25,066 nucleotides of DNA from a virus, in IMG/VR virus record IMGVR_UViG_3300026519_000262, positions 1 through 25,066 of that record; one strand, given 5' to 3'. Within the stretch, counting starts at the first letter, position 1; the number at the start of each line of letters is the position of its first letter. The translations under genes and the position numbers were made by a program. The notes below the pieces were generated by a model, which saw nothing but the letters and a program-made list of their open reading frames with translations, ran no database searches and was not told the DNA's origin. Positions 2,972 to 25,064 of the stretch are shown piece after piece.

Positions 2972-2987
2972 AGTGGTTGCTAGTGTT

Positions 2988-3005
2988 CGGCACTTTGGAT
3001 AAATA
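2988..3005 (+). promoter_or_regulatory. Late-type promoter, extended GATAAATA box
   Basis: CGGCACTTTGGATAAATA matches the recurring motif CGGCAACTTGGATAAATA. The core resembles the T4 late box TATAAATA. It lies between a gene stop and a 26-codon ORF with a strong Shine-Dalgarno, at a suitable distance for a short leader. Promoter function is inferred from recurrence and position. Confidence 0.6.
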
Positions 3006-3120: not shown

Positions 3121-3164
3121 TTGAAGCGCCCACTTCCAAATCAGCGGACTGAAGTCGGAAGTGG
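3121..3164 (+). repeat. Dispersed hairpin (TTGAAGCG + CCACTTCC/GGAAGTGG), promoter-fused copy
   Basis: TTGAAGCG precedes CCACTTCC (3130-3137), which pairs with GGAAGTGG (3157-3164); an inner TCAG/CTGA stem sits in the loop. The right arm runs directly into TATTT and the late-type promoter. There is no U-tract, so this is not a classical rho-independent terminator. It separates the micropeptide gene from the next fibre gene. Confidence 0.75.
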
Positions 3165-3169
3165 TATTT

Positions 3170-3187
3170 CGGCAACTTGGATAAATA
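3170..3187 (+). promoter_or_regulatory. Late-type promoter fused to hairpin
   Basis: CGGCAACTTGGATAAATA is the full form of the recurrent motif, starting 5 nt after the hairpin. It is followed by a leader of about 80 nt before the fibre gene at 3274, whose start has an AAGGA Shine-Dalgarno. Confidence 0.65.
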
Positions 3188-4542: not shown

Positions 4543-4562
4543 CCATTATAATTACATTTTTA

Positions 4563-4597
4563 ATTTGGAAGTGGTCTTCCGGGAACTTGGATAATTA
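4563..4597 (+). promoter_or_regulatory. Half-hairpin plus late-type promoter
   Basis: ATTTGGAAGTGG (right arm of the dispersed hairpin, left arm missing) is followed by CTTC and CGGGAACTTGGATAATTA, a variant of the late-type motif with one change in the last four bases. Probably a decayed cassette; activity uncertain. Confidence 0.45.
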
Positions 4598-6056: not shown

Positions 6057-6084
6057 TATAATGTTATCCTAAATTGCCGGAATA

Positions 6085-6118
6085 CCACTTCCAAATTAAG
6101 TTACTGTTTTGGTGGTGG
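6085..6118. repeat. Dispersed hairpin, chimeric-arm copy with degenerate minus-facing promoter
   Basis: CCACTTCCAAA (left) faces TTTGGTGGTGG (right); the stem keeps all but one pair with one wobble. The left flank, read on the minus strand, is GGTATTCCGGCAATTTAGGATAAC, a decayed late-type promoter tail; the right flank is TCGTTTCAA. It fills the gap between the methyltransferase and the next glycosyltransferase. The right arm resembles the copy at 21375-21409 and the left arm the common type. Confidence 0.6.
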
Positions 6119-6192
6119 TCGTTTCAATGATTAGCACCTGACGAAAGATCAAGCAAATGACAAGACCATTTGCTTGTAGGAGACAGACCCAC

Positions 6193-7509: not shown

Positions 7510-7544
7510 TTGAAGCGAGCTGAATTTGGAAGTGGTCGCTTCAA
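7510..7544. repeat. Dispersed hairpin, short arm variant at convergent junction
   Basis: TTGAAGCGA (7510-7518) pairs perfectly with TCGCTTCAA (7536-7544); the loop retains GCTGAATTTGGAAGTGG, i.e. the right arm of the common hairpin whose left arm was deleted. It lies where a plus gene and a minus gene converge, a place for a bidirectional terminator, but has no U-tract. Confidence 0.65.
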
Positions 7545-8352: not shown

Positions 8353-8381
8353 ATAATATGAAATATTACGGGAGATGTCAA
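8353..8381 (-). promoter_or_regulatory. Sigma70 early promoter for small-gene operon
   Basis: On the minus strand TTGACA (8381-8376) and TATTAT (8358-8353) are separated by exactly 17 nt, 6/6 and 5/6 matches to consensus. It drives the operon starting at 8330. The -35 box lies inside the 140-nt element shared with the window's right end. Confidence 0.8.
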
Positions 8382-8513
8382 TGCAGCAACGAACATTCTC
8401 CGCTTGGGAAGTCAAGCGCTGGTAGTAGGAGTCTGTGGAAACACAGAAGACACAATGGGTGACCATTGTGCGAATCCACTTCCAAATCAAAGATTTGGAA
8501 GTGGTCGCTTCAA
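8374..8513 (+). ncRNA. Structured RNA element, copy 1 (four hairpins, two GNRA loops)
   Basis: A 140-nt segment with a near-identical inverted copy at the right end of the window (4 differences, at 8395, 8421, 8424 and 8426, none in the four helices). Hairpin 1: CGCTTG/CAAGCG (8401-8418, loop GGAAGT), bracketed by CTCC/GGAG. Hairpin 2: TCTGTG/CACAGA (8432-8447) with a GAAA tetraloop. Hairpin 3: CACAATGG/CCATTGTG (8451-8470) with a GTGA tetraloop. Hairpin 4: CCACTTCCAAATC/GATTTGGAAGTGG (8476-8504, loop AAA), extended by GCGA/TCGC. GNRA loops occur only if the plus strand is the RNA. A rho-independent terminator follows 6 nt later. No own promoter is evident, and no known RNA family was recognised. 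Confidence 0.6.
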
Positions 8514-8518
8514 CCATT

Positions 8519-8546
8519 AAAAAAGGCCCAACATTTGGGCCTTTTT
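8519..8546. terminator. Bidirectional rho-independent terminator
   Basis: GGCCCAA/TTGGGCC stem with a CAT loop, flanked by an A-run on the left and five Ts on the right, so it works in both directions. It ends the minus-strand 151-aa gene and would also set the 3' end of a plus-strand RNA from the adjacent structured element. Confidence 0.9.
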
Positions 8547-8565
8547 CGTTAAGTTGCTGATTTAA

Positions 8566-9021
8566 TTAGCTATCAGCCCCCTTCTTGGGTGCTTTTGTTT
8601 TAGGTGTGGATGTTTTAGCTACACTTTCAACAACAACATTGTTTAACTCCATTGATTTCATTTCTGATTCATTTGTGGTATTCACGCTGCCTGTGCCCAC
8701 GCTACCCAATCGTGGATTCATAATAACACCACGATCCGAAATGACTTTTACTAATTGATGGAAGTATTCAAGTGCATTCATTCCATTGTTAAGTGTTACT
8801 TGGCTCATCAAGTCCCATAATTCAAATGATTCCGCATTTCGACTATACAGAATTTTACTTAAGCGCGATTTATCAATTGAGTCCAAATGCGAAATTTCTA
8901 AATAATAAGTATTTCCAAATTCATCTTCTTTGAATACCGCACATTCATATAAAACACCATCATTTTTCAAATCAATCCATTTTACATGTGGGACTTGGCT
9001 TTCCCTCTTTGCTATAGACAT
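8566..9021 (-). CDS. Unknown 151-aa phage protein with basic low-complexity tail
   Basis: The N-terminal 110 residues look globular (VPHVKWIDLKNDGVLYECAV, NTYYLEISHLDSIDKSRLSK, ELWDLMSQVTLNNGMNALEYFHQLVKVI) and are followed by MNPRLGSVGTG and a Ser/Thr/Lys/Pro-rich tail ending KTKAPKKGADS. Such tails are common in DNA-binding or virion-assembly proteins. AAGGAGC lies 8 nt before ATG, and a bidirectional terminator follows the stop, so it is a single-gene unit. I cannot assign a family. Confidence 0.6.
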   Translation of the reverse strand: MSIAKRESQVPHVKWIDLKNDGVLYECAVFKEDEFGNTYYLEISHLDSIDKSRLSKILYSRNAESFELWDLMSQVTLNNGMNALEYFHQLVKVISDRGVIMNPRLGSVGTGSVNTTNESEMKSMELNNVVVESVAKTSTPKTKAPKKGADS

Positions 9022-9869: not shown

Positions 9870-10178
9870 TTATCCGGCAAACACGTTGCCAGAGCCCGTG
9901 GTAATGACGGCGGAATGCTGGTCACTATGCGGTGGGTCGCTATGTGGTGCGGTTGCATCGTTTACCCTACTAATTGGCAAATTATTAACAAATACACTGC
10001 CACTTCCCGTTACAATTACAGTAGGTGGATAAAAGTTATGACCGGGTAACGTGTGACCCGCTGTTAGGCTAGTTATCGTACTCACGGGTAAATTATTTAC
10101 AAATACATCCCCACTGCCGGTGACAATGGTATCGGTATCCGACAGTTTGTCGGTTATTCGTGCAACAGGTAATGTCAT
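9870..10178 (-). CDS. PAAR-like tail spike tip protein
   Basis: A 102-aa protein with PAAR-type organisation: MTLPVARITDKLSDTDTIVT, then repeats GSGDVFVNNLPVSTI, GSGSVFVNNLPISRVND and GSGNVFAG, with His residues (AGHTLPGH, PHSDPPHSDQH) that in PAAR proteins bind a metal at the cone tip. PAAR proteins cap the gp5/VgrG spike of contractile tails (T4 gp5.4). The third repeat stops right after NVFAG without the usual NGxPxxR continuation, so the C-terminus may be shortened, or this repeat closes the cone. It is coupled to a downstream virion-like gene. Confidence 0.85.
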   Translation of the reverse strand: MTLPVARITDKLSDTDTIVTGSGDVFVNNLPVSTITSLTAGHTLPGHNFYPPTVIVTGSGSVFVNNLPISRVNDATAPHSDPPHSDQHSAVITTGSGNVFAG

Positions 10179-10199
10179 TATTGTTCCGTTGTTAAAATA

Positions 10200-10230
10200 G
10201 TAACAAAATGCAACAAGTGTTTTTTGTTAC
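10200..10230. repeat. AT-rich hairpin upstream of PAAR gene
   Basis: GTAACAAAA and TTTTGTTAC form a 9-bp stem around a 13-nt loop, some 20 nt before the PAAR start on the minus strand. Read on the plus strand it would end in a T-rich arm, but it is not a clear terminator. Role unknown. Confidence 0.4.
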
Positions 10231-10420
10231 TGGTTATTCACAATGTCAACGAGCTTGCCAAGATGATCCTTGGACTAACGGCTCTCTTTTGTGCATTTTT
10301 GGTCGCCCTGCAACGCATGGCGACCATACTCTTTTAAATTATTTGCTGCATAAAAATCACAATCTATATTAACACCACAATCACAACTATACAACTGTTG
10401 ATAACTGTTGGCACCCGATT

Positions 10421-13391: not shown

Positions 13392-16300
13392 TTAAAAGCC
13401 TAATAGTGAGTCGTCTGACATACTTTGTTTAGATGGTACTGTTTTATCAATAGCTTTAATAATGTTGCTTAATGGTTTATCTACCAATCGTTCAATATGC
13501 ATTTTTCGATTTATGTTGAAATTATCAAAAAACCATTGCGGAACCTGCTGTATATCCGTTGGTAATGCAATGCTTTTAAATTTACCAATCATAGTTTGTA
13601 AGTAAAAAACCTTAATTTTCATCCCCGATGTTATTTTCATGCTTTCTTTATCACCATACAAGTCAAGACATTTGTTATAATGAATTGCTGCGGCCACATG
13701 ACCCGGAATAGATATTTTATTATTAGGATCTTGATTATTAAATGTGTGCGTGTACTGTTCAAGCTTTGTGATACCTTTGGGTAATCCTATCAGCAATACA
13801 TCGGACGTATTATATAATAATTCCTTATATTCAACGATATCAGCCGCTAACTCTTCCCAAGTTGCCCCTTTAAGATATTGTTCTATGAACGTTGTTAATT
13901 TTTTAGATATGTGTTTCGGTAGTGTAGTTTTTTTTAATTCAACGCCCATTATTTTTAATTTATCACACAAAAACCCGTCATTATCAACTACCCGTAAAAC
14001 ATATCGTTTTTTATCAATGAAAATTCCTTTAGATGTTATATTTTCCCTAGCTGTAGATATATTAATGGCAAAATCGTCACCGCATAAAAAGGTATCACGC
14101 ATAAACGCTGGGAAAGATTTATCAACTTCGGTGGCAACAGTATCCGCAATTACGGTGGCTTGTTCTTGTGTTTTACCATGCGTAGTGAAGTAACTTGAAT
14201 CTGTATTATGTACCAATACGCTGTTTGCAAAAAACATATGGGTATTACCTACTTCAATATCATATACATAATCATCATATTCAATTTCTTCAATTTTATG
14301 GGTACCATGTGTAATAGCGAAATCGTATGCGCTATCGCTACCTGTCAAGTGTATTAAACTATTCGTCCCGTCTTCAAGCGCTTGTGGTTTTATTTCAAAT
14401 AAAACACTTTCGCCATCACTACGTTGCTCGGTATTTTTATATCCAATTAAAGAATGATCTTCGGTAACGTCAACGTAGATCGTATTGGTGAGCCAAACCC
14501 TGAACATTTTTTTAGTTGTTTTATGCCGCATGACATACAGTACATCATCGAATATTGTTTTATTTTGGGATTCATCATAGGTTAATGTCTTCATATTTGT
14601 AGGAAAATAATATTCTTTTCCGTTGCTATGTTGCTCATCCACTGTTTTAAACATTTGTGATATTTTACATTCACCACCGTTTTCAAGAATAAGTGTTGAA
14701 TCGCTGGCAACACTGTCACCATAAATCACTGACCATTTCTTTGAATATCCAATATGGGTTTTATCGTTTTTATCAAGCCGCGATGCATCGGGTAGTGTAT
14801 ATTCACCATCTAATAATTCTGTCACCTTTGCACATTGGTGCAGCAATATAGCGCGGCTGGTAGCGGTGGTACTTTCACCTAACCGTTTATCATAAAATCT
14901 AAAATATGCATTTAATAAACTACCATAGTAACTGTTAAGTTTTATTTTATAAATGTATTGTGTTTTATCATAATATAATGCCTGTGCCTTGTCGTTTGCC
15001 TCAAGACATTTTTGCTTTAGCTCTTGAAAGTGTTGTCGCTTGTCGTACCAGTCATTTAATATTGCTGGCATTATTCCTTGTTTATTTTGTGAAAATACGG
15101 TACCGAAACCTGAAATCGCCCAACCCTTCTCCTTAAGAATAGACTTCCAGTCGGATGCTTCTACTTTATGTATATCACCCGATTCCAACTTTAATGATAA
15201 TATTTTAGAACTATTGTCGTTTATCGCATCGAACGCTTCTTCTTCTTCTAAAAATTGACCAACGATTGTTTCAGGACTAAGATTAAGTGAACGGATAACA
15301 GAAGGATACAATGACTTTATATCAATAGAACCTATCCAGTCATGTTCACCAATTTGTGGAATTAGAACAAATGCACCCTTTGCTTTACTCGTTGTATCAG
15401 GTGGTGTCACATCATTAACAATAATACCGTTCATTTCATGGTGACAATAATTTACGGTTGCTAAATCCGCCAGTTTAATTGTACCAGTCACATGCTGGAA
15501 CAACCCGGTGGACATATGTACCATTTGATTCGCAATATCAATATAACCTAATCGTTCTTCAAACCCCTTCAAAATTTCAGTATCCCGCAAGTTATATCGC
15601 ATAAACATTATGAAATCAGTATGGTACAAATGTGCTAATGACCCTACATATTCAAGTTTAGATAACGTTGATTCACCGGTTTCCTTATCTATTAATATTT
15701 CATCAGCAATTGCCTCTAGCTTAAAGGATGGGCGTTCGGTAACTTCGTATTTTTTGAATATTTTTAAATAATCCGCAGCAATTCTACCATAAATGTCAAC
15801 TACTGTTTGTTCCTCGTTGAAACTATTTAATTCTGTCTTAAAACGTGGGGAACGGGAATCGGGAAAACTTAAACGATTTAAAAAGCGTTTGCCCATTCGT
15901 TCTAATCGTTTGGCGGTGTAGGGGTCATCAAATCCATGACTATTCCAGCCACTAATGACATCGGAATCTTCAATTTCATCTAAAAAATGCTTTAATAATT
16001 CGGATTCATCCACACATATATTGACTTCAACCGTGCAATCAGTGGGTAATGGTGCTTTTTTGGCAAGTTCTTCCAATAATTCCGCACCATCTATTGGCCC
16101 ATCATAGTTCGGGGGTGGAACAGAATATAAGACCATTCTATTTTCCCAGTTATTGTATAGTGCCAAAGAATTGATAGGTGCGTATGGGTCATCAATAGAT
16201 GCATATCCACGTTCTAAATCATAATCGTTTTCTATATCATAGAATGTTATATGTAGCGTTGGAGCGGCAACACCATAATAATGTTCGGATAATATTTTTA

Positions 16301-16553
16301 AATCAGGGGAAATATCAGATTCAAACAAGATTTGTCCGGCGCTAACAGCAGACATCTTCGCGGCGATAAATTCTTTCCCCGTAGCAAAATCATGCCGTTC
16401 AAGCTTATCGCCATATATGCTAGTGTATGTACCATTATCCGATTTAGTATAATAGTAATATGGGGCGCGATAATTAACAATTTGACGTTTACCATCCACA
16501 CGTTCCCACACCAAAACATCATTATTCTTTTTAATTGCACTAATATAACTCAT
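13392..16553 (-). CDS. 43: T4-type family B DNA polymerase with intein, gp43-like
   Basis: A 1053-aa precursor; without the intein it is 883 aa (T4 gp43: 898 aa). Exonuclease: HITFYDIENDYD (D106, E108), SGWNSHGFDDPY (200s), YNLRDTEIL (D324). Polymerase: motif A SIDIKSLYPSVIRS (D411), motif B KIKLNSYYGS (536-545), motif C YGD/TDS split by the intein after D613 (T784 resumes). A KKRY segment follows. The C-terminus DDSLLGF is a clamp-binding-type hydrophobic tail. All catalytic residues are present once spliced. It has its own sigma70 promoter and is followed by DUF488. It replicates the phage genome with the clamp gene downstream. Confidence 0.95.
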   Translation of the reverse strand: MSYISAIKKNNDVLVWERVDGKRQIVNYRAPYYYYTKSDNGTYTSIYGDKLERHDFATGKEFIAAKMSAVSAGQILFESDISPDLKILSEHYYGVAAPTLHITFYDIENDYDLERGYASIDDPYAPINSLALYNNWENRMVLYSVPPPNYDGPIDGAELLEELAKKAPLPTDCTVEVNICVDESELLKHFLDEIEDSDVISGWNSHGFDDPYTAKRLERMGKRFLNRLSFPDSRSPRFKTELNSFNEEQTVVDIYGRIAADYLKIFKKYEVTERPSFKLEAIADEILIDKETGESTLSKLEYVGSLAHLYHTDFIMFMRYNLRDTEILKGFEERLGYIDIANQMVHMSTGLFQHVTGTIKLADLATVNYCHHEMNGIIVNDVTPPDTTSKAKGAFVLIPQIGEHDWIGSIDIKSLYPSVIRSLNLSPETIVGQFLEEEEAFDAINDNSSKILSLKLESGDIHKVEASDWKSILKEKGWAISGFGTVFSQNKQGIMPAILNDWYDKRQHFQELKQKCLEANDKAQALYYDKTQYIYKIKLNSYYGSLLNAYFRFYDKRLGESTTATSRAILLHQCAKVTELLDGEYTLPDASRLDKNDKTHIGYSKKWSVIYGDSVASDSTLILENGGECKISQMFKTVDEQHSNGKEYYFPTNMKTLTYDESQNKTIFDDVLYVMRHKTTKKMFRVWLTNTIYVDVTEDHSLIGYKNTEQRSDGESVLFEIKPQALEDGTNSLIHLTGSDSAYDFAITHGTHKIEEIEYDDYVYDIEVGNTHMFFANSVLVHNTDSSYFTTHGKTQEQATVIADTVATEVDKSFPAFMRDTFLCGDDFAINISTARENITSKGIFIDKKRYVLRVVDNDGFLCDKLKIMGVELKKTTLPKHISKKLTTFIEQYLKGATWEELAADIVEYKELLYNTSDVLLIGLPKGITKLEQYTHTFNNQDPNNKISIPGHVAAAIHYNKCLDLYGDKESMKITSGMKIKVFYLQTMIGKFKSIALPTDIQQVPQWFFDNFNINRKMHIERLVDKPLSNIIKAIDKTVPSKQSMSDDSLLGF
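14205..14714 (-). other. Intein in polymerase motif C (pol-c type site)
   Basis: 170 residues (614-783) inserted between YGD and TDS. It starts with SVASDSTLILENGG (Ser1 as nucleophile), has block B VDVTEDHSLIGY (T697, H700) and ends VYDIEVGNTHMFFANSVLVH plus Asn783, with Thr784 as +1 nucleophile. This matches Hint-domain blocks A, B, F and G. It is too short for a LAGLIDADG or HNH endonuclease, none of whose motifs appear, so it is a mini-intein. The polymerase is inactive until it is spliced because the metal-binding D-T-D motif is interrupted. Confidence 0.93.
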
Positions 16554-16615: not shown

Positions 16616-16628
16616 GCAATTAAAGCGA

Positions 16629-16662
16629 CCACTTTCAAATAAGTTTGCTGCGTTGAAGGTGG
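16629..16662. repeat. Dispersed hairpin between polymerase and fibre promoters
   Basis: CCACTTTCAA pairs with TTGAAGGTGG, one U-G wobble replacing a mismatch. Left flank AAAGCGA, right flank TATTCCGGCAACTAGGGTAAAA, a degenerate late promoter tail. It separates divergent transcription of polymerase (minus) and fibre (plus). Confidence 0.7.
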
Positions 16663-16719
16663 TATTCCGGCAACTAGGGTAAAAGCAACATTAAAATCAT
16701 TATTGCGCCATTAATTTTT

Positions 16720-16737
16720 CGGCAACTTGAATAAATA
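16720..16737 (+). promoter_or_regulatory. Late-type promoter for fibre gene
   Basis: CGGCAACTTGAATAAATA, one change from the consensus motif, preceded by a T-run. Leader of about 60 nt to the ATG at 16803, which has AAGGAGAGG. Confidence 0.6.
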
Positions 16738-18453: not shown

Positions 18454-19833
18454 ATGCCACAAGTTAGAGTAACCGCAGAACAATTAAATGTATTAAGTGT
18501 TGCGGATGGAATCGCAGCTGATCCCACCGCTATCGAGGCCATTGCTACTGGTGTTATCGCCGAGCCTGCTGCTGCTGCCATGTTTGATGCCGAATATCTT
18601 CGGTTAGACGGAACGGTATTGATGGAAGGCAATCTTGATCTTGGTACCTTTGATTTGATAACAACAGGAACGGTAGACGGTCGTGCGGTTGGTGCCGATG
18701 GTATTGTTCTTGATGGGCATGTTGGAAACGATGGGATACACCGCGTTATAAATGATAGTGGAACGTTGACCACCGAATTATTTTCTGCCAGTAAAATTAT
18801 TGCGGATTTAGCATTAAAGTCTGATACCGGTCATGTTCATGTCGCTGCTGATGTTACAAGTGGAACTTTTGCAGATGCACGCATAGCCGTTAGTAATGTA
18901 TCTCAACACGTTGCCGCAATTGACCATGACTTGTTGTTGAACTTTGATCCTAATGAACATTTTACGCAAGGCGCAATAAGCATAACAGAAAGTCAGATAT
19001 CCGACTTGCAAAGTTATGCATTGATTGGTCATTCGCATGACTTGGATAATTTGAATAATGTCTCAGTCGCTGCCGCTACTAATGGTCAAGTATTAACGTA
19101 TAATCTGGGGACCACTACATGGGAAGCGGTTAGTCCTGTATCAGGGGTAACAGACCATTTACTTTTAAGTAACATAGGTACTAATTCACATGCGCAAATT
19201 GATACGCATTTAGCGGATGCAACTATTCACCGCGTTATAAATGATAGTGGAACGTTGACCACCGAATTATTTTCTGCCAGTAAAATTATTGCGGATTTAG
19301 CATTAAAGTCTGATACCGGTCATGTTCATGTCGCTGCTGATGTTACAAGTGGAACTTTTGCAGATGCACGCATAGCCGTTAGTAATGTATCTCAACACGT
19401 TGCCGCAATTGACCATGACTTGTTGTTGAACTTTGATCCTAATGAACATTTTACAGAAGGCAGTATTAATCATGCTAATATTGTTGGGATTGGTACTAAT
19501 TCACATGCGCAAATTGATACGCATTTGGCGGATGCAACTATTCACCGCGTTATAAATGATAGTGGAACGTCGGCCACCGAATTATTTTCTGCCAGTAAAA
19601 TTATTGCGGATTTAGCATTAAAAGCGGATTTATTATCACCTACCTTTACCGGTCTGCCCGTCTTACCAACAATCGCGAAGGCTGGCTTGACCCTTGGTTC
19701 TGGTTTGGCGGGTGAACCAATCGGCTCAACTGTATATGTTACCGATGATGCAGCGTCGCCCGTGTTTATAATGGCTTGGGTAGATGGAACCTCGACTTGG
19801 GTGCGTTCGGATACCGGGGTTGCCATCGTATAA
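18454..19833 (+). CDS. Repetitive tail fibre protein
   Basis: A 459-aa protein opening MPQVRVTAEQLNVLSVADGI after AAAGGAG. It is built of repeats: HRVINDSGT(L/S)(T/A)TELFSA and SKIIADLALKSDTGHVHVAA, then DVTSGTFADARIAVSNVSQH, found twice nearly whole and once in part. The modules contain 'HxH' and 'TGHxH' segments that in long tail fibres can bind metal ions. Two of the repeats are identical DNA over 227 nt. The C-terminus (YVTDDAASPVFIMAWVDGTS) resembles fibre-end modules. Follows the first fibre by 31 nt and likely joins it in a late operon. Confidence 0.75.
   Translation: MPQVRVTAEQLNVLSVADGIAADPTAIEAIATGVIAEPAAAAMFDAEYLRLDGTVLMEGNLDLGTFDLITTGTVDGRAVGADGIVLDGHVGNDGIHRVINDSGTLTTELFSASKIIADLALKSDTGHVHVAADVTSGTFADARIAVSNVSQHVAAIDHDLLLNFDPNEHFTQGAISITESQISDLQSYALIGHSHDLDNLNNVSVAAATNGQVLTYNLGTTTWEAVSPVSGVTDHLLLSNIGTNSHAQIDTHLADATIHRVINDSGTLTTELFSASKIIADLALKSDTGHVHVAADVTSGTFADARIAVSNVSQHVAAIDHDLLLNFDPNEHFTEGSINHANIVGIGTNSHAQIDTHLADATIHRVINDSGTSATELFSASKIIADLALKADLLSPTFTGLPVLPTIAKAGLTLGSGLAGEPIGSTVYVTDDAASPVFIMAWVDGTSTWVRSDTGVAIV
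18739..19454 (+). repeat. Exact 227-nt direct repeat (18739-18965, 19228-19454) in fibre gene
   Basis: The two segments are identical over 227 nt, offset 489 nt (163 codons, frame kept). A third, partial copy begins at 19538 with two substitutions, and the intervening TNSHAQIDTHLADATIH segment is also repeated. Identity at synonymous sites suggests recent duplication or conversion. Confidence 0.9.
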
Positions 19834-20407: not shown

Positions 20408-20450
20408 CTAACTGTTGCTATTTCGCCAGTGTACCCAAGTTGTAGGAAGA

Positions 20451-20485
20451 CCACTTCCAAATTCAGCATGCTGATTTGGAAGTGG
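20451..20485. repeat. Dispersed hairpin at convergent junction
   Basis: CCACTTCCAAAT, inner CAGC/GCTG and ATTTGGAAGTGG form a long near-perfect stem. Left flank read on minus: GGTCTTCCTACAACTTGGGTAC, a decayed promoter tail; right flank TCGCTTCAC. Lies between converging plus (TylF-like) and minus (DsbA-like) genes. Confidence 0.8.
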
Positions 20486-20527
20486 TCGCTTCACAAATGA
20501 ATTAACTGTCTTGTATACACCGACATA

Positions 20528-21351: not shown

Positions 21352-21368
21352 AATTTATCCAAGTTACA
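21352..21368 (-). promoter_or_regulatory. Minus-facing late-type promoter
   Basis: Minus strand reads TGTAACTTGGATAAATT next to the hairpin at 21375-21409, matching the recurring motif except at its ends. In tandem with the early promoter for the same operon. Confidence 0.55.
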
Positions 21369-21374
21369 GGAATA

Positions 21375-21409
21375 CCACCACCAAATTCAGCTTGCTGATT
21401 TGGTGGTGA
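21375..21409. repeat. Dispersed hairpin with compensatory changes
   Basis: CACCACCAAAT, inner CAGC/GCTG, and ATTTGGTGGTG pair fully, while the common form is CCACTTCC/GGAAGTGG. Both arms changed TT/AA into CA/TG, so pairing is preserved. Right flank AGCGTTTCAA. Confidence 0.8.
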
Positions 21410-21447
21410 GCGTTTCAACGTTCAATGACGACATATCGTAGTGGTTT

Positions 21448-21465
21448 CGGCAACTTGGATAAATA
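21448..21465 (+). promoter_or_regulatory. Late-type promoter for virion genes
   Basis: CGGCAACTTGGATAAATA, perfect motif, preceded by GTGG (hairpin remnant). Expected start about 6 nt downstream gives a 16-nt leader with GGGGGAG Shine-Dalgarno before ATG 21487. Confidence 0.65.
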
Positions 21466-24888: not shown

Positions 24889-24924
24889 TTTATAAAGCCT
24901 CATTCGTGATTGGGTTAAAGTTTA

Positions 24925-25064
24925 TTGAAGCGACCACTTCCAAATCAAAGATTTGGAAGTGGATTCGCACAATGGTCACCCATTGTGTCTTCTGTGTTTC
25001 CACAGACTCCTCCAACGAGCGCTTGACTTCCCAAGCGGAGAATATTCGTTGCTGCATTGACATC
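24925..25064 (-). ncRNA. Structured RNA element, copy 2
   Basis: Inverted copy of the element at 8374-8513, 136 of 140 bases identical; all four hairpins, both tetraloops (GAAA and GTGA on the minus strand) and the bracketing CTCC/GGAG are intact. The four changes lie in linkers and the region between hairpins 1 and 2. It starts, on the plus strand, with TTGAAGCGA and ends with an early promoter -35 box. No terminator like that after copy 1 lies downstream; minus-strand transcription would continue to the 24888 gene. Confidence 0.6.

Follow-up and report, generated by a model that had tools for sequence, protein, structure and literature searches.

The window analyzed here, the whole stretch of viral DNA at its full length of 25,066 nt (IMG/VR record IMGVR_UViG_3300026519_000262, positions 1 to 25,066), contains a 140-nt repeat with the appearance of a structured RNA, and the question is what kind of element it represents and whether it is still in use. 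Comparison of the window with itself confirmed two inverted copies, copy 1 at 8374–8513 on the plus strand and copy 2 at 24925–25064 on the minus strand, with 95% identity. An earlier reading, made without database searches, had counted four differences between them; there are seven in 140 positions. The linker that follows stem 1 and the loop of the final hairpin contain three each, and the 5′ tail contains one; as that reading had stated, none of the seven lies inside a drawn helix. The four hairpins that it described are likewise present, with GAAA and GTGA loops on the one strand only. Folding was far stronger than that of shuffled sequences on both strands (z of −4.85 on the plus strand and −5.25 on the minus strand). 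Because both strands fold well, folding energy is not decisive by itself, and the choice of the RNA strand had to rest on the GNRA loops. The strand so chosen proved to be correct on other grounds, as it is the sense strand of tnpB.

With high confidence, the repeat consists of a tnpB 3′ end joined to the right end (RE) of a transposon of the IS200/IS605 family, one that has spread in a jumbo phage of the T4 superfamily, and it encodes an omegaRNA (reRNA). The sequence-only reading had overlooked that tnpB codons open the repeat and that about ten further intergenic sites of the window carry copies of its last hairpin. In the frame from 8371, the first codons of the repeat read GDVNAATNILRLG, the end of the TnpB RuvC-III motif, and the final RuvC-III codons (DVNAATNIL) occupy 8374–8400 (+), as judged from the translation and from homologous genes. 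The sole similar stretch in 50,697 phage records was an identical run of 26 nt in a gene of Lactobacillus phage Semele that is annotated as a transposase and is TnpB by Pfam. A related phage contig, G001 (IMGVR_UViG_3300026519_000009), was retrieved with the last hairpin as a search pattern, and the tnpB of G001 led to a second, G002 (IMGVR_UViG_3300026519_000016). Each of these contigs has tnpB ORFs that end in the 140 nt, match guided_TnpB (E = 7e-36), and are degraded by internal deletions. No intact tnpB of this family was found in the three contigs, every copy being internally deleted or cut by a contig end. In G002, an open tnpA (Y1_Tnp, E = 1.5e-41) lies between a left end (LE) and the divergently oriented start of a tnpB that is cut off by the contig end, an arrangement that is the IS605 layout. 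The Y1 HUH TnpA with LE and RE hairpins that marks a parent element is therefore present in G002; it is absent from the window itself.

The short tail of tnpB present in the window had no TnpB match when scanned against Pfam and NCBIfam, and the assignment to TnpB therefore rests on the homologous loci. Variation in the 140-nt copies is spread evenly over the codon positions, which argues against their maintenance as protein. Nothing reached the gathering score in a scan of the repeat against Rfam 15. The sequence-only reading had seen no recognized family; the element is nonetheless of a known kind, as the homologous loci and the shared pseudoknot described below identify it as the omegaRNA/reRNA of an IS200/IS605 TnpB. 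Weak Rfam matches (asX2, STnc40, and Phe_leader) fell on the terminator-like hairpin and are not real, and a tRNA search likewise gave nothing real.

The scaffold is ∼113 nt long (8401–8513), compared with 116 nt in ISDra2 of Deinococcus radiodurans, and consists of stem 1, a pseudoknot, two stem-3 hairpins, and the RE hairpin as stem 4. In the structure of the ISDra2 omegaRNA, the loop of stem 1 forms a pseudoknot with guide-proximal bases (PMC10097598), and the ISDra2 reRNA originates from the tnpB 3′ end and RE, with its last ∼16 nt derived from flanking DNA (PMC8612924). The phage element has the same origin and the same succession of parts. Copy 1 is the 3′ end of a 5′-truncated tnpB that runs into RE. 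Its stem 1 (8401–8418, +) pairs 8401–8406 with 8413–8418, and the pseudoknot joins bases 8408–8412 of the stem-1 loop to 8507–8511 (+), just before the guide, both being supported by covariation and by the same layout in ISDra2. The stem-3 region follows at 8433–8470 (+), and RE (8476–8513, +) forms a TnpA-type hairpin, terminating in TCGCTTCAA, that serves as stem 4 directly before the guide. The would-be guides of 16 nt were placed in the flanking DNA by analogy with ISDra2 (PMC8612924), at 8514–8529 (+) for copy 1 and at 24909–24924 (−) for copy 2. Unlike ISDra2, the phage has two consecutive GNRA hairpins as its stem-3 region (loops GAAA at 8438–8441 and GTGA at 8459–8462), the target motif is probably TTTAT and not TTGAT, and the location is a phage genome, in which one copy lacks TnpB. 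The latter is copy 1, an orphan that also has no LE. Copy 2 comprises the same tnpB 3′ end and RE but touches the contig end and, cut there, may belong to a longer tnpB gene.

A homologous 3′ end is carried by tnpB of Thiofilum, Methylobacter, Azomonas, Psychrobacter, and others, mostly 50%–67% identical in the C-terminal part. In an alignment of 28 phage and bacterial sequences, 27 of them distinct, 98.7% of the cells in stem 1 and the pseudoknot were paired, with 89 double changes over the 27 distinct sequences. This pairing was reached by none of 500 shuffles, a count that is not a probability since the aligned sequences are related; controls with slid structures retain the relatedness and yet paired in only 25%–45%. 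The pseudoknot pairs are GACAU:AUGUC in most bacteria, GAAGU:GCUUC in the phage, GGCUU:AAGUC in Psychrobacter, and GACGU:ACGUC in Burkholderia. According to the sequence-only reading, arms that vary without compensation would leave the repeat as DNA only; in the core, stem 1 and the pseudoknot were instead found to covary strongly. Comparison of the six phage copies revealed two compensated pairs in stem 4. Apart from one broken pair, the changes in stems 3a and 3b are all of the G-U type, and the stem-3 hairpins hence gain little support from covariation. Paired columns in these six copies were only slightly less variable than unpaired ones (p = 0.06). The bacterial omegaRNAs (loci L041–L079) have a homologous stem 1 region and share the compensated stem 1 and pseudoknot with the phage, but they differ in the RE hairpin and have no counterpart of the two stem-3 hairpins. 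The two GNRA hairpins, missing from the closest bacterial omegaRNAs, lie outside the conserved core. The identity, the homology, and the conserved structure of the repeat, like the open tnpA in a related contig and the degraded tnpB copies, are established by these observations.

Two of the bacterial tnpB 3′ ends (L050, 1807–1914; L041, 1789–1913) gave a weak sense-strand match to HgcC (RF00062), with 29.7 and 25 bits against a gathering score of 50. This similarity hints that HgcC may itself be a TnpB omegaRNA; no mention of the two together was found among open papers.

In ISDra2, TnpB cleaves the empty donor site beside the motif that TnpA targets (PMC8612924). By analogy, TnpB would bind the scaffold RNA of the phage element, read from the plus strand at 8374 and from the minus strand at 24925, and a guide of ∼16 nt, copied from whatever DNA adjoins the insertion, would lie directly 3′ of the scaffold. 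TnpB loaded with this RNA would then cut the empty donor site, specified by the guide sequence and by the target motif, which in this phage lineage is probably TTTAT, and cutting would help to restore the element after its excision by TnpA. As DNA, the RE hairpin is the single-strand site for TnpA. For the phage omegaRNA, we infer transcription, TnpB loading, and cleavage from the ISDra2 system. Copy 1 has the scaffold and the flank but neither LE nor TnpB, and so would depend on a TnpB provided in trans by another copy or by the host. That this orphan is still used today is somewhat doubtful, with about one chance in three.

There is an even chance that copy 1 is a dead relic, a decaying 3′ fragment of a transposon that is neither transcribed nor used and is either tolerated between genes or kept for the −35 box of its neighbor. 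The lack of LE and TnpB would fit such a relic, as would the neighboring genes, which all run leftward, and a strong sigma-70-like promoter of the leftward gene (8353–8381, −; 11 of 12 consensus bases) that has its −35 box, TTGACA, inside copy 1. Dozens of clearly decaying remnants are also present across the same lineage, and the window has about ten LE/RE remnants. Decay is harder to reconcile with the state of the structure: neither window copy has helix damage, the differences between the two avoid all helices, and the pseudoknot bases are unbroken in both. The best promoter match for copy 1 on the plus strand is weak. Where a rho-independent terminator had been reported to follow copy 1, a hairpin flanked by an A-run before and a T-run after is visible at 8519–8550, but it is symmetrical, may serve the leftward gene 8566–9021 equally well, and was not listed in a terminator scan of the window.

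It is unlikely that the repeat is kept purely as a DNA substrate for TnpA, a mobile element of the ends type with the RNA fold as a by-product. Such a role would agree with the open TnpA in G002 and with the occurrence of the same RE hairpin, together with an LE, in mini-elements of ∼60 nt without any omegaRNA. However, the 140-nt copies also keep parts that the TnpA hairpin does not include, namely stem 1, the pseudoknot, and the stem-3 hairpins, and copy 1, having no LE, is not a complete mobile unit. The weakest alternative, a regulatory or decoy ncRNA invented by the phage with no link to a transposon, as first proposed, would be compatible with a structured GNRA strand and the lack of an Rfam match over threshold but is left with next to no probability by the homology to phage and bacterial tnpB 3′ ends and the shared pseudoknot. 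Nothing was found in support of the proposed regulatory, host-targeting, or decoy function; a structured RNA element in a phage, the broader part of that proposal, was borne out.

As tnpB 3′ end and RE, the repeat belongs with a larger set of transposon ends. LE consists of (TTTAT)CCAAGTTGCCGGAATACCAC and a hairpin, RE of a hairpin and TCGCTTCAA, and the two hairpins share the same arms. Elements of ∼60 nt, bounded by an LE flank and an RE flank at opposite ends, appear to be what a collapse between the hairpins would leave. In the window, these ends-only mini-elements are found at 3121–3187 (−; LE flank, hairpin, and RE flank), 6068–6128 (+), 16620–16681 (−), 20434–20494 (+), and 21358–21418 (+), and remnants with half a hairpin at 4560–4597 (−, LE) and 7514–7544 (+, RE). 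Ends-only derivatives of IS605 are described as PATE or PATE-like in Haloquadratum (PMC3119063) and Halanaerobium (PMC7290912). The mini-elements have both ends and no ORFs, as PATEs and MITEs do; copy 1 has RE without LE and does not belong to this class. An element of Halanaerobium that combines an LE hairpin with the final 58 nt of tnpB and a complete RE (PMC7290912) is the nearest precedent, among open papers, for an orphan tnpB 3′ end. In contrast to the window copies, PATE and PATE-like elements reside in cellular genomes and were not described as guide RNA, and the LE is missing from copy 1.

A fuzzy scan of the 152 kb of the three contigs found 45 LE-type ends, a few of them weak. TTTAT lies immediately 5′ of 26 of the 45, mostly as TATTTAT, which is the reverse complement of the late-promoter-like motif ATAAATA. 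LE ends adjoin this T4-late-promoter-like motif in the window at 2985–3005, 16717–16737, and 21445–21465 and at many sites in G001 and G002, and ATAAATA was observed upstream of 27 of 134 LE-free genes versus 4 on the antisense strand. Late promoters would not be disrupted by an insertion beside them. Targeting of late promoters by LE was considered and rejected: outward genes were abutted at 15 of 39 LEs versus 43 of 141 LE-free intergenic TTTAT sites (p = 0.23). Because the LE-free sites abut outward genes almost as often, no targeting beyond the TTTAT motif is claimed.

A second tnpB family has 3′ ends in the window (10176–10399, −), in G001 (30351–30576), and in G002 (15541–15760). G001 has a TnpB-like ORF of 299 aa (PF07282, HTH_OrfB), and the window and G002 each have a copy of its last ∼220 nt, 91%–93% identical and unaccompanied by the gene. 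These two copies share a stop (CAG to TAG) that is absent from G001, as if they had descended from one noncoding copy. The fold of this 3′ end is not clearly stable (z of −1.64).

The guide of copy 1 had no match in IMG/VR. The 20 nt after copy 2 (TAAACTTTAACCCAATCACG, 24905–24924, −) were matched exactly in eight IMG/VR contigs, seven of which represent one gene context, and a single reversed control 20-mer was matched in none. The matches lie within phage structural genes of two sequence contexts, which look like putative T4-type tail tube genes, and TTTAT was in front of none of the eight. In the three contigs, guide targets showed no excess (12 versus 11 for shuffled guides), and an empty donor site for either guide was found neither there nor in IMG/VR. 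We regard it as quite improbable that the phage keeps dispersed, TnpB-less guide RNAs of two tnpB families that act in trans, each adding a guide derived from its flank, and that, in the boldest form, some of them strike competitor phages. The phage copies resemble the TldR RNA-guided repressors in being a TnpB-derived RNA-guided system carried by phage (PMC13418256) but have no adjacent TldR-like protein and no conserved guide target; on present evidence, they are not a repressor system.

The B-family polymerase of the window is nearest to those of the jumbo phages XacN1, Stenotrophomonas CM1/RAS14, and SCTP-2, and the host genome of the repeat is that of a large T4-like jumbo phage of the T4 superfamily. 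Between YGDS and TDSSYF, the polymerase ORF (13392–16553, −) appears to carry an in-frame insertion of ∼150 aa, a putative intein. No genes outside the elements are common to the window and G001 or G002, and for this reason the three contigs may be pieces of one phage genome. An exact repeat of 127 nt at the contig start (1–127 and 250–376) may reflect the k-mer length of the assembler, and long near-identical repeats lie within tail-fibre-like ORFs at 18685–19629.

TnpB is the ancestor of Cas12. Both omegaRNAs and ends-only derivatives of IS605 are already known; relative to the open papers searched, the new points are the occurrence in a phage, the high number of remnants per length of DNA, the additional hairpins, and the 3′-end orphans of two tnpB families in one phage lineage. 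Covariation across the phage and bacterial sequences of the alignment supports the omegaRNA pseudoknot, in a family that lies below the Rfam 15 threshold. A mystery RNA is converted into a testable statement, namely that a T4-superfamily jumbo phage carries TnpB guide-RNA scaffolds, at least one of them without the nuclease. If expressed, such orphans would show whether TnpB guide RNAs outlive TnpB and function apart from it.
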